A stretch of DNA of 64,000 nucleotides. Source: Cliona cf. orientalis (Eukaryota > Porifera > Demospongiae > Clionaida > Clionaidae). Each line of letters starts with the position of its first letter. Positions within the stretch are counted from its first letter, which is position 1. The stretch spans positions 3,782,001 through 3,846,000 of the forward strand of contig OZ005707.1 in the NCBI GenBank assembly GCA_963930775.1. The letters run 5' to 3'. Under the pieces are notes generated by a model. That model saw only the letters and a list, made by a program, of their open reading frames with translations, did no database searches and had not been told where the DNA came from. Position numbers and translations under genes: made by a program. This document shows, one piece after another, positions 18,601-24,600 of the stretch.

Positions 18601-21600
18601 ATATTTTCCAATAGTGAGAAGTGAACACTTTTCAGTGCCAGTCATGTTTGCACATGTACCAGCATTGTCACTCGATCTTTGGCCTTCTCTGTGGCTGTAC
18701 ATTCCTCACCTCTGAATGTATTGGTTTTGTCGGGTAACAATCGCCAATACAGCCCTGTTTCATCAGCACTGAATATGTCATTTGGATCATACCTACTCAG
18801 GATTGGCTGAAGTGTCCGCTGCTTCCAATCGTCACACACATCTTTGTCAACAGCAGCATTCTCCCTGCCAATACTTCTGTAGACAGCATTGTGGCGTTTT
18901 TCCATCGACTCAGCCATCCACTAGAGCAGATCCACGAGTCTGACTCATCCAGTAGGGATGGCAGTGCCAAAAAATACACAAACAAGATTTGTAGAGATAA
19001 CGTATCACACCCACTATACATCCCTATGCTTGCTTTTCTCGATAATACCGTATAGCGGGTAATTTTCGTGGGGTTTAAATTTTGTGAAAAGTCTGATTAA
19101 GCCGTCAAAATTAATTTTCGTGACTGTCGAACCAGGCTAGGACAAGTGGTGCTGCGTGTGCTTGCCATGATGATGTAATTTATAATCGCGACGTGCGTGT
19201 ATACGATACGTACACGCCTTCCCTGATCCATGTGTCGAGCTAGCGATGGAGAGATTTTGCATTGACTCTTGTGTACGAGGATACCACGTTTACAGTGACA
19301 TATGGGGCGCTAGTGTTGGTGAAGAACTGCCATATGAACGCGAGGATGGAAATAGTGCCGATCCTTTTGCTGTCGTTATCAAACGGAGTGGAGTGATTGT
19401 TTGTCACATACCAAGGAAGATCTGTTCGGTTTGCTCTTATTTTTGCGGAGAAATGGAATAATACGACAGGAGGGAGGCGATATTCAGCAGACTTACCTCA
19501 GGGGGCCTTGAAATCCCGTGCACGATTATATTTGAAGGTGTTGAAAAGGACGTGGAGAAGGTGAAAAGTGCTGCTTTGACACCTCCCACTGGTGATGAGA
19601 ACTTGCCACCAGACAACAAGAGAAGAAAGATCGACTCTTAGGTTGATAGAGACCCGGACAATGACTTGGCAGAATGGGTGAGATTTGGTTGTCTTGTCCT
19701 CACCCAGCATGACAGAAACATCCTTCTAACTGGGCAGGAGCTCTCAGATAAGCATATTGATTTTGCTCACACCATGCTGCGATCACAGTTTCCGATGTTA
19801 AACGGCTTGCAGTCAACATTGTTCCAGTCTCGCTCCCAAGGATTCAAGTCAAGCATGAATGCAATACAGATTATCCACTCTCGCAGCAATCATTGGATTG
19901 TAGCTACAACTTTACAGTGTGGCCCTGGGGAGGTAAAGATCTATGATTCTGTATATGAATTGTTGGACACAGAAACACTCGAAGTGGTGAAGAGGTTATT
20001 TGGCAATGAAAACAAGCCGCTAACAGTTTCCATGGTCACTGGGGCACCTAGACAGCAAGGGAGCACCGATTGTGGTGTATTTGCCATAGCAGTTGCTACC
20101 TGCCTGGCATTTGGTGGTGATCCGACAAAAATGATGCTTCATCAAACGACCATGAGAAGTGAGCTCCTGAAGCGCTTCGGATCGAAGCAACTTACCCAAT
20201 TTTAGCTATAATAATATTATACAGCATAATAATCATCATCATGTAAATCATTTGATTTTAAAAAGAATGTGAATCAGATATTGATTTAAAAAAGATTACT
20301 TAATGTGCATAACACTGTACTGTACAATGGGTTCGGAGTTAGTCCTTTAGGCTGTCCAGTATGCCAGCTGCAGAGAAATCATTTACAATGGAGGGGTTGG
20401 AACTCAGGTTGTCTTTGAGCATCTTGAGCACCTCCACTGTGCACTTACCCTTGAATGCATCAAATATTACTAACACAGAGTGATCATCTTCCAGACCTAG
20501 CTGTTGCCTCTTCTCCTTCACGTATGGTAGGATGATTTTTTCGATGTAGGCCTTAGTTGTTTGTTCATTAGCCCACCTGTTGGGAGTGTACATTATACTC
20601 CAATCATCAGGAAAAGTGAAGGTAGGTAGACTTGCTGCTGTCTTGCCTTGATAAATCGCCTGGATTGGGAGGAAGTCACCAACAGCTGTAGCAGCAAATA
20701 CAGCCGTAATCTGACGCTTATCTTCAACACAGGCAATCTCGACTCTTTTGGCACCTTTCTTCTCCATCGTCCAAGATGATACTGGAACAATTTTTATTCC
20801 CATTTGATCCCAATTGATTACTAACTCGGGTGGAATCTCCATCATCTCGACCACCGCCTTGATGTCAAAGAGATACTGGGTCTTCAGAGCCTCAAATTGC
20901 TCAACGGCAACCTTAACTTTGGTGTTTCCTCATCTTTTGACAAATCCCATCCTGTGAAGAATAGATTTTGCCTAGTTTTTCTTGAGTTCAAGGGGACCAC
21001 CTTCTTTCTTCAGTAGTGACCTATCTCGCTTGCGAACAACTCCCATAGCTACTGCAATGGCAATTGATATGTTGACAACTGCTCCACTGTCACGCATGGC
21101 TCTGATGATGGTCTGCACTTCAGCATCAACCTTTTCCCCGAGCAAGAAAGGTCTACCTTGTTTTTTGCCAGATAAATGACTCACGACTAAATCACACCCT
21201 GGTTCTGCTGATCTTTGTTTGTTCTGTAGCTCCTTTTTATAAGCCTTTACCCAATCTCGAACAGTGGTCTCCTTTAGTTCTCTACCGAGCTCCCCTCTAA
21301 ATCTTCGCATAGCAGCACAAACTCCATGGACGCTGCCGTTCTGGGCTACTTGCGCCTTCTCCTCGGGTATGAAGGAGAGATACGAACCTCGTTTTTTCTT
21401 CTGTGCAGCGGTGACCGACTTTACTTCTTTGTTATCCTCAGCGAGGACGCTCGGAGCAATCATACGGGACAGAGGGCCTTTGTAGTCAAGAACGTCATCA
21501 GCTGGTCGACAGTAGCGATAAAGGGACATGTGAGCCATTCTTTGTTAACACTCAGGCTGAGCTTCATACCAGGCCAGCTCAGTGTTGGCCACACCCACCG

Positions 21601-24600
21601 ACCGAGCCTTAGCGGTTGTGTGCGTGCATATATTGGTAGTCATTAAATTCCGTGGGTGAAAAATTTCGTCACTCTGGATCAACCGCAAAAATAACGAAAA
21701 TTAGCACCCCACGAAAATTACCTGCTATACGGTAATTAATGTCATACACTTTTGATTCAGTATGTGAAATATCGCTATATTTGATATTGGTCCATGGGTA
21801 TACAGTAATGATTTTCCATTCCTGCATGTGCCCCATATAATATAATAATATTATGTGTGTGCACAGCTACTAAAAAAGCATGAATTTTACTGAGAGCAAT
21901 AAAAAAAGAACACACACAAGTATAAAAGATACAATATACAATTGAAGGATGAAGTAGGGATGGCAGGGTCAAAAAGTACATAAACAAGATTTGTAAAGAT
22001 AATCTTGTCCACTAATACATCCCTACACTTGCTTTTTGAGGGTCGCAAAAACTAATATCTTCCACATGCAAGTCAAGAGTGCTTAACGAACAAGTTAGGT
22101 GCATGATAATCAAGAAAAGCAAGTGTAGGGATGTATAGTGGATGTGATTATCCCTATGTTTATGTACTTTTTGATCCTGCCATCCGTACTTCATCCTTTA
22201 ATTTTATGTTTTTTTATACTTGATGAACATACATCAGTGGGATTCTCGAGACAGCTCAGGTAACCAGTGTCTAGACTGACCTGCGAATGAAGCCACGCCC
22301 CTCGTTATCTTGATCCTGAAGCTGGCTGACCGGAAACTTGAAAGAAGGCTGTTTAGAACCAAGTAGTGACTGAAACATTCCACTTCGGGAGCGTATTTTA
22401 TAGGCCAGTAAGTTAACTGTTGGTAGTAGCCACCATAATCAACAGTTCACTGAGCTGATCAGTTGAGTACACGCTCAGGTCATGGATGCACCGTCACTGG
22501 CGCACGCGCGCCACTGACGTGACATTGGTCACATGACTTCACCATGGCAACACCGTATGAGCATGCACATTATATGATAAAATGGCTAATCAAACACACC
22601 CACTTGCAAAATGCGCTGTACACACCCACAATTAAATTGATGTCCTGATAACAAAACGAGCGTACCACAGACGTGTGCGCTCCGAAATGGAGTGGATTTA
22701 TACTCGAACTAAGATGAGCTGTCATAGTTAGCCCAGGAAAACACAGAGAAAGAAAGATTGACAAATGGCTCTTTTTTGAACATCTGGCTCTGGCATGTAC
22801 AATTGAATTGATGAATGATCTTGATCTTGTTAGATAGATAATTTGCCATAGATTCTGATTTTGACACTTAAAATTTTCACAAGGTTACCTGTTTTGAGAT
22901 ACAGTGGAGCCCCTCTAATGGATAGAACGTGGGTGTGGCTTATCACTAAAATCAATAATGTAATGCAACCTGTGACCTCTCAAGTAAGGCATGTGGAAGC
23001 TACTAAGGGAGAGATTAGCAGTTCTAGTGCACTTGTAGCGCTCTAGCTAGCCTCTAGTTCTTTTTGTTAGTTTAGCAAGTGAATCTACAAATTTGTTGCC
23101 CAAGTGTTCGCTATAAGGGTGAGTTCGTATGGGCGGTATTACTGTTGGGGCCAAACCAAGTGTCCGCTTTACGGAATAGCGAGGTGTCCGCATTCAGGGG
23201 TTCTGATTGTATGTAAGTCTATGGAGATGGCATTCAGGACCATGCAGAGTGTCCGCATAACCGTAGATGTCCGCATTTCAGGGGTGTCTGCAAGGCGGGG
23301 TTCCACTGTATTTGGATATTTGTAATGTATTACATATATGGAGTATCCGTGCCATCCCACTTATAGAGTCTACCGACTCTGTGATAACCATCAAGAACAT
23401 AACTAGAAATTTTTTACACTGAGGCAGGTGATAAAGATAGCACAAGAAAACTTAGCCACGTCCCTCAAGGGTCAAACCACGCCAATTTTCAAGTGTTCCT
23501 CTGTGATTGTAGCAAGTCTTCTTGAGTCTAGAACGGTGCGCAAACCTGTTTTATCAAGATCATATGACATTACTTACATCATCTCAGAGAGCAACATCAG
23601 TCTAGCTCTCTTGGAGATCGGTGCTATTCCTAGTAAAAGTTCGAGTGCTTAGTCAGCAAACATAGCATGCATGCAGCATGGTGAGTGTTGTATATTTAAG
23701 TATAATAATATTATATAGCTGGCTAAACTGATGACTGAGGCAGCTGCTTCGGTTGCCTCGATGGTAGATATGCCCTTGACCACTGCCTGTCTGTACAGTT
23801 AAATATTAGTTTCCAAATATCTATTTATGTGCGGTATCCATAGTCAAGCTTATCATCATAAGCCTGCTGATTGATCATGTCAGGTCATGTCTGATCAATC
23901 CATCATGCTAGAGGTATAATATTCTTTTTTTTTTATCCCCTACTCTTTTCACATAGGATACTGCTCCCAGTGTGGTAGTAAACATGTCATCTTCAGAATT
24001 CCAGCGCATTGTTCGTGATCTGTCACAATTTGGGGACTCAATGTCAATTTTATGCACTAAAGAAGGTATAACGTTCAGTTCAGCTGGTGCTACTGAGGGA
24101 TCTGCCAAAATTACCCTAAAACCAACCTTATGCACAGATGAAAATGAAAAAAAGGGAGAGTCTGTAAGTTTATAATGATAATTAGCGTACCGTATTTCCT
24201 TGATCAGACGCCGCGGCTACTATTAATTTCAGCTTTGCTGGAGTGCAGCTACTAATCGAGGGCGGCTCTTATTCAAGGGTGGCCTTTATTAATTTGAAGC
24301 AATACCTCTTGGTGACATCGACACAATAGACGCGAGTTTTCAGGACTGATTTTTGAATGTTTGAGATAGATGATCGATAAATAAGCAGCAGAACCAAGCC
24401 AAGGACATTTTCTGCCACGTTCTTGCCTCGAACTAACAATCGTGCATGGCTTGCTATCGTGGCCACGCCCACTTAATTGTGTTTGCGCATGCGTGTGGCT
24501 ACTATTTGAGGGCGGCTACTATTTCTGATCGCAGAGCTCCAAGTGCGGCTACTATTTGAGGGCGGCCTTTATTTGAGGAAATACGGTATCTGGAAAGTAG

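Follow-up and report, generated by a model that had tools for sequence, protein, structure and literature searches.

A transposon of apparent pogo type with a convergent HIRAN–Ulp1 gene in the sponge Cliona cf. orientalis

A TA-flanked unit of 2,685 bp was found at positions 19048–21732 of a 64,000-nucleotide stretch of the Cliona cf. orientalis genome (contig OZ005707.1, 3,782,001–3,846,000; the whole stretch is hereafter the window), with inverted ends enclosing a HIRAN–Ulp1 region that converges with a DDE transposase. We are highly confident that the locus is an inactivated two-gene DNA transposon of pogo type and that HIRAN–Ulp1 is an integral accessory gene. Its role is a more tentative matter: the HIRAN domain may place a deSUMOylase at the 3′ ends made by transposition, a mechanism to which we give somewhat less than even probability, and the whole explanation, identity and mechanism taken jointly, we regard as evenly balanced.

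An inactivated copy in the window

The inverted ends are ∼32 bp long, and the two genes lie tail to tail, HIRAN–Ulp1 on the + strand and the transposase on the − strand. The end sequence CCGTATAGCGGGTAATTTTC fills 19048–19067 and its near-complement 21713–21732. As an earlier note on this DNA had described, the ends match (28 of 32 terminal bases pair) and TA stands on both sides (19046–19047 and 21733–21734). The features are as follows.

19046..19047, TA target-site duplication, left
19048..19079, + strand, left terminal inverted repeat (TIR), 28 of 32 bases pairing with the other end
19246..19566, + strand, HIRAN domain, broken and in more than one frame (profile hidden Markov model (HMM) built here; weak Pfam match, E = 0.2)
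19666..20205, + strand, Ulp1/C48 peptidase domain (Pfam C48, E = 6.2e-7; catalytic columns; profile of relatives against SENP1)
20339..20929, − strand, C-terminal part of the transposase with the first and second Asp (similarity to the C6 copy and alignment; frame 20342–20929)
20407..20413, internal deletion junction (∼235 bp missing relative to G000:C6:9298654)
20972..21538, − strand, N-terminal part of the transposase
21701..21732, − strand, right TIR
21733..21734, TA target-site duplication, right
34497..34704, 208-bp miniature inverted-repeat transposable element (MITE) with similar ends and TA on both sides

The window copy is dead, its HIRAN frame being broken and its transposase lacking ∼235 bp. 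The HIRAN–Ulp1 frame is interrupted by a TAA at 19459, a change of frame and a TAG at 19639, and the Ulp1 frame is open from 19642. The earlier note had read HIRAN and then Ulp1 in one frame: both regions are there in that order, but the HIRAN region of the window is split across frames. Its pieces match the profile HMM built here (E = 2.6e-27, 7.4e-4 and 8.1e-7), and the Pfam match of 12 bits (E = 0.2) falls below the 24.7-bit cut-off. The Ulp1 region matches Pfam Peptidase_C48 at E = 6.2e-7 (29.9 bits, cut-off 20.7) and, as previously described, has its catalytic His, Asp, Gln and Cys in place.

The transposase has indeed lost its third acidic residue, through a deletion at ∼20407–20413 of ∼235 bp that the closest copy (G000:C6:9298654) still contains. 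The C-terminal piece matches that copy at 92% over query residues 1–150. The window pieces alone gave no Pfam DDE_1 match, and all three scanned relatives did (36.5–54.5 bits, cut-off 22). The second and third Asp of the DDD triad are 35 residues apart in all seven elements checked. The transposase thus looks pogo-type from its DDE_1 domain, DD35D spacing and TA target, in agreement with the earlier classification, the DDE_1 match coming from intact relatives and not from the window pieces. TIRs measured 17–46 bp in 11 elements by a simple ungapped rule. Pfam reported no N-terminal helix-turn-helix in three relatives of the window transposase, and the transposase profile had no PDB match at E 0.1.

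A family that moved as a block

The genome searched comprises 216.8 Mb in 149 contigs, in which the Ulp1 query gave 153 matches and the transposase C-terminal piece 93. Each genome search scored its best candidates only (90 of 322 for the full transposase, 150 of 277 for Ulp1, 150 of 490 in another search and 40 of 1346 in a DNA search on the half-HIRAN MITEs). At nine of the ten best-scoring Ulp1 loci, a convergent transposase is encoded on the opposite strand, 0.1–0.6 kb away. The TIRs of complete copies mostly begin with CCGTATAG. Among the ends listed, all 13 on the right and 11 of 12 on the left have TA outside, the sole miss being one doubtful left end.

Pairs of copies at different sites are 97.2% (2,993 bp), 99.5% (3,117 bp) and 99.85% (2,726 bp, truncated on one side where the locus ends) identical. 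Because these near-identical copies cease to match at the junction of TA and CCGTATAG, both genes moved as one block, and the 99.5% and 99.85% pairs show that they did so recently. This upholds the earlier description of one unit with convergent frames. Among 15 fetched HIRAN–Ulp1 loci, in one of which the second gene lies outside the fetched stretch, four have both genes long and open.

HIRAN and Ulp1 share one open frame at 8 of the 15 loci, and 5 retain a transposase frame of 450 residues or more, which means that some copies keep an open protease frame beside a broken transposase, as might a host gene domesticated from a transposon. We consider domestication very improbable: separate host-like HIRAN and C48 exons occur elsewhere, and it was rejected because the copies are bounded by TIRs and TA and are dispersed over the genome.

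The end motif occurs 1592 + 1659 times genome-wide at up to two mismatches (reversed control, 0 + 1). End pairs were merely 0.38–0.49 kb apart at seven of eight fetched loci, so it is literally true that most copies of the motif lack Ulp1, which the earlier note had named as a refutation; MITEs normally stand in this relation to a parent element. Larger MITEs of ∼0.6–0.7 kb with the family's ends retain the 5′ half of the HIRAN gene in all three fetched cases (L076–L078). Smaller elements near the window copy were also found, on a modest scale: a window search at up to four mismatches gave one complete pair (34497–34704, three and four mismatches), together with unpaired ends at 16762, 26594 and 35383.

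Both domains are conserved in relatives

In one relative, a 326-residue protein at L011, both domains exceed the Pfam cut-offs in a single chain (HIRAN 32.6 and C48 32.9 bits). HIRAN also passes its cut-off at L045 (33.6), L032 (26.7), L017 (26.1) and L075 (25.1 bits), and falls under it at L013 (23.8), L010 (20.8) and L067 (18.7 bits). C48 passes in the window (29.9), L010 (27.3) and L011, is below its cut-off in L032 (16.6 bits) and has no match at E 0.01 in L013 and L017. The catalytic His, Asp, Gln and Cys are conserved in all 14 HIRAN–Ulp1 rows, and a profile of the relatives matches human SENP1 (E = 5.4e-5) with the four catalytic residues aligned. The HIRAN profile has HLTF as its sole PDB match, and the invariant Asn of the family aligns with the second Asn of the NN pair of HLTF. 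NCBIfam gave no match at 0.01 for any of three proteins, and viral_contigs held no relative of the HIRAN–Ulp1 profile or of one transposase.

Separately, a HIRAN frame at L080:1229–1504 scored 50.5 bits and looks like a host HLTF-type exon; C48 matches at G000:C7:1617618–1625007 we take to be possible host SENP genes.

Between families dS is mostly saturated, and dN reaches 0.32–0.62 for HIRAN and 0.53–0.78 for the Ulp1 part with its linker (dN and dS being nonsynonymous and synonymous divergence). The limited dN (0.32–0.78) despite saturated dS is read as selection keeping both domains during family divergence. What is observed directly is the two-gene unit, its mobility as a block, and that the two domains and the catalytic residues are conserved.

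HIRAN is the steadier partner of the transposase

The full-transposase query gave 63 loci, 45 of them covering at least 300 of 473 residues. A listed HIRAN match lies within 3 kb of 33 of these 45 (∼0.5% per locus expected by chance), the nearest being convergent at 28, divergent at 4 and on the same strand at 1; Ulp1 was counted at ∼17 of the 45, a figure in which C2:6951932 probably borrows a neighbour's Ulp1 and C1:273185, counted as lacking it, has one by local search. HIRAN is therefore the steadier partner. The final count used all 102 transposase, all 150 HIRAN and 150 of 153 Ulp1 rows, with 56 of 81 rows for a second transposase lineage. This lineage is distant, also of pogo type, carries BrkDBD (Brinker-type), HTH_Tnp_Tc5 and DDE_1 domains, and also has a convergent HIRAN gene. 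A listed transposase of one or the other lineage was present within 3 kb for 40 of 52 near-full HIRAN matches, leaving 12 without, and for 19 of 98 short ones. The values 33/45 and 40/52 were identical in earlier counts on thinned lists (65, 101 and 95 of 150 HIRAN rows; 70 of 153 Ulp1 rows and 17 preselected ones).

Of the 150 Ulp1 rows listed, 16 have HIRAN on their own strand, and the transposase is present at every one of these. HIRAN-only elements exist, such as L045 with a HIRAN gene of 116 residues, and in one branch a HIRAN with an acidic tail is oriented away from the transposase. Ulp1 is fused to HIRAN in some lineages, and a few elements have neither.

That the gene was captured by chance, or is an unrelated gene nested in the element, might be argued from the many end-motif copies without it and from the 133 of 150 listed Ulp1 rows that have neither HIRAN nor transposase within 3 kb. 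That Ulp1 lies mainly outside such ends, which the earlier note had named as a refutation, is literally true of the domain at large, but those rows are of another type, most being 27–39% identical and all four scanned carrying a PHD finger. HIRAN–Ulp1 recurs across diverged families, where its position and direction stay the same, its frames are open and its residues conserved; the co-occurrence counts led us to reject chance capture, the least probable of the alternatives considered here and one we give almost no weight.

In the transposase tree, HIRAN–Ulp1 elements form two supported groups, beside one of which nine HIRAN-only elements appear as a starred group. Two changes of Ulp1 state are required on this tree, yet an alternative with all Ulp1 elements in one clade is not rejected (p-AU 0.124, approximately unbiased test), and we accordingly make no claim on the number of Ulp1 gains or losses. 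The Ulp1 tree splits 14 HIRAN–Ulp1 rows from 17 others of the genome with weak support (59/20). Rows of fewer than 200 (transposase) or 90 (Ulp1) residues were meant for exclusion, and one far row was dropped from the transposase tree.

Other Ulp1 genes were seen with a different transposase. A Tigger-like DDE_1 (HTH_psq) transposase is followed ∼2.7 kb downstream by a same-strand Ulp1–PHD gene at three loci (L070:946–5461, L071:2601–7117 and L073:1943–6453), two of them in a long 99% duplication and the third diverged. This is possibly a second, independent pogo-type association with Ulp1; its status as a mobile unit is not shown, the two close copies lying inside the longer duplication. In the right part of the largest contig (G000:C1, ∼14–37 Mb) there are many listed Ulp1 matches, often in frames of ∼1,100–1,150 residues, and L034, the single long frame from this region that was scanned, has a PHD finger at its end. 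They probably represent an abundant mobile gene.

What the accessory gene may do

The HIRAN domain of HLTF binds a 3′-OH end, and its N90A-N91A form is disrupted in function (PMC11237066, excerpts); the stacking tyrosines of HLTF are Y72 and Y93 (PMC4666394, excerpts). In the proposed mechanism, the first gene of the element supplies the DD35D transposase, by which the element is cut and joined at TA, and the second, running from the other end toward the first, a HIRAN domain fused to an Ulp1-type deSUMOylase. HIRAN would bind the free 3′-OH ends exposed by transposase cutting and so position the deSUMOylase at the transposition complex or the donor break, where it might strip SUMO off the transposase or off host repair or chromatin proteins; removal of SUMO would then favour excision, repair and reinsertion. 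We infer 3′-end binding, SUMO as the substrate and an effect on transposition. The authors of the Ginger study likewise proposed that transposon Ulp1 and OTU proteases assist repair around transposition (PMC2836005, excerpts).

Several observations weigh against this explanation. Twelve of the 45 transposase loci lack a listed HIRAN (one of them has HIRAN by profile HMM), and complete transposase-only elements of 1.8–1.9 kb with different TIR sequences exist, two copies of which are 99.0% identical over 1,804 bp. With several lineages lacking Ulp1 as well, movement does not strictly depend on either domain. The match of the HIRAN profile to HLTF is weak by E-value (0.024), and the YY pair of HLTF aligns to Ile and an invariant Trp and Y93 to no conserved residue, so the stacking tyrosines are not kept and the mode of DNA binding may differ. 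A single-sequence fold of the window Ulp1 reached a mean pLDDT (predicted local distance difference test) of only 37.9. In one close copy pair the Ulp1 part shows no clear constraint (dN 0.011, dS 0.016), as expected after insertion, yet this gives no support either. Ulp1–PHD genes of other kinds have no HIRAN nearby, and end-targeting therefore cannot account for Ulp1 cargo in general.

An alternative role is anti-silencing, in which Ulp1 would deSUMOylate the host small-RNA or heterochromatin machinery at the element and keep it transcribed, the HIRAN part of the fusion serving only to localise it. SUMO promotes silent chromatin and Argonaute- and piRNA-guided silencing in C. elegans (PMC8131101, PMC8131105, excerpts), Panx in Drosophila points in a similar direction (PMC13195609, excerpts), and the presence of Ulp1 cargo across many transposon types that are not related to one another suits a general host target better than a transposase-specific one. 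Against this, the commoner partner of the transposase is HIRAN, with or without Ulp1, a domain of DNA-end type, and nothing in this analysis ties the HIRAN–Ulp1 protein to silencing. We consider anti-silencing possible but unlikely, and rank it close behind end-targeting because SUMO supports small-RNA-guided silencing.

The HIRAN protein might instead bind ends or breaks so as to limit or bias transposition, acting as a repressor to which Ulp1 is an add-on. The half-HIRAN genes of abundant MITEs could yield dominant-negative proteins, and the isolated HLTF HIRAN domain is dominant-negative in a Cas9-removal assay (PMC11237066, excerpts); the MITE frames, however, vary, are short and could simply be what deletions left behind. 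Self-regulation of this kind seems to us improbable.

The fusion joins a protease to a domain with relatives that hold 3′ ends of DNA, inside elements that must make and resolve such ends, and the partnership suggests that the element brings its own helper for DNA breaks or for escape from silencing. More speculatively than the mechanism itself, a broad set of pogo-type elements may encode a dedicated HIRAN 3′-end-binding factor, which in some branches could have become an end-guided deSUMOylase for the remodelling of SUMO at transposition breaks, in effect a transposon-made break-management protein. The question bears on why unrelated transposons repeatedly acquire SUMO proteases, and the natural versions with HIRAN–Ulp1, with HIRAN alone and with neither offer a ready comparison for the role of each part.

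Neighbourhood of the element

Directly left of the element, window positions 18346–18702 hold a remnant of a different DDE_1 transposase (73.5 bits). A different inverted repeat flanks the element, with copies at 18951–19046 and 21933–22210. One arm of the left copy stops at 19046, in the TA of the element, which looks like an insertion of the element into the repeat, although the right flank was not shown to continue it.

Comparison with known systems

Ulp1 genes in transposons are already known from Mutator, Ginger1 and Crypton elements. Mutator elements have a Mutator transposase and longer target duplications, whereas the elements described here have DDE_1 and TA; the scanned transposases match DDE_1 only, which sets them apart from Mutator and from the plant group that the earlier note named Kaonashi. 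The likeness lies in the cargo, Ulp1 being carried by Mutator elements of hydra, lancelet and plants (PMC2836005, excerpts), so that the earlier statement that such cargo is known in plant Mutator and other groups is borne out (see also PMC3212892, excerpts). Ginger1 resembles our elements in bearing an Ulp1, sometimes with PHD, or an OTU protease, and differs in having a Gypsy-integrase-like transposase to which the protease is fused, with no HIRAN in the excerpted description (PMC2836005). Our scanned proteins gave no integrase match, and their genes are separate and convergent. Oomycete Cryptons encode a C48 peptidase beside the recombinase, which is a tyrosine recombinase and not a DDE enzyme; a Fusarium Mariner–Crypton composite has TA duplications, and C48 is named there for another element (PMC3212892, excerpts).

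The HIRAN of the elements belongs to the same family as that of HLTF by Pfam and PDB profile search, but HLTF combines it with a SNF2 helicase and a RING domain (PMC4666394, excerpts), whereas in the elements it occurs without these, alone or fused to Ulp1. Among the open-licence papers listed by our searches, one of which listed 12 of 2,540 matches, no title or abstract reported HIRAN in a transposon or a pogo element with Ulp1. The main text of PMC7386202 contains none of the words HIRAN, protease and Ulp1, and PMC7325037 contains neither HIRAN nor protease.

The closest likeness in transposase is to the pogo superfamily of the IS630-Tc1-mariner group (Passer/Fot-type DD35D), with which the elements share DDE_1, the 35-residue spacing, the TA target and short TIRs, and to which they add a second, convergent gene encoding HIRAN or HIRAN–Ulp1.

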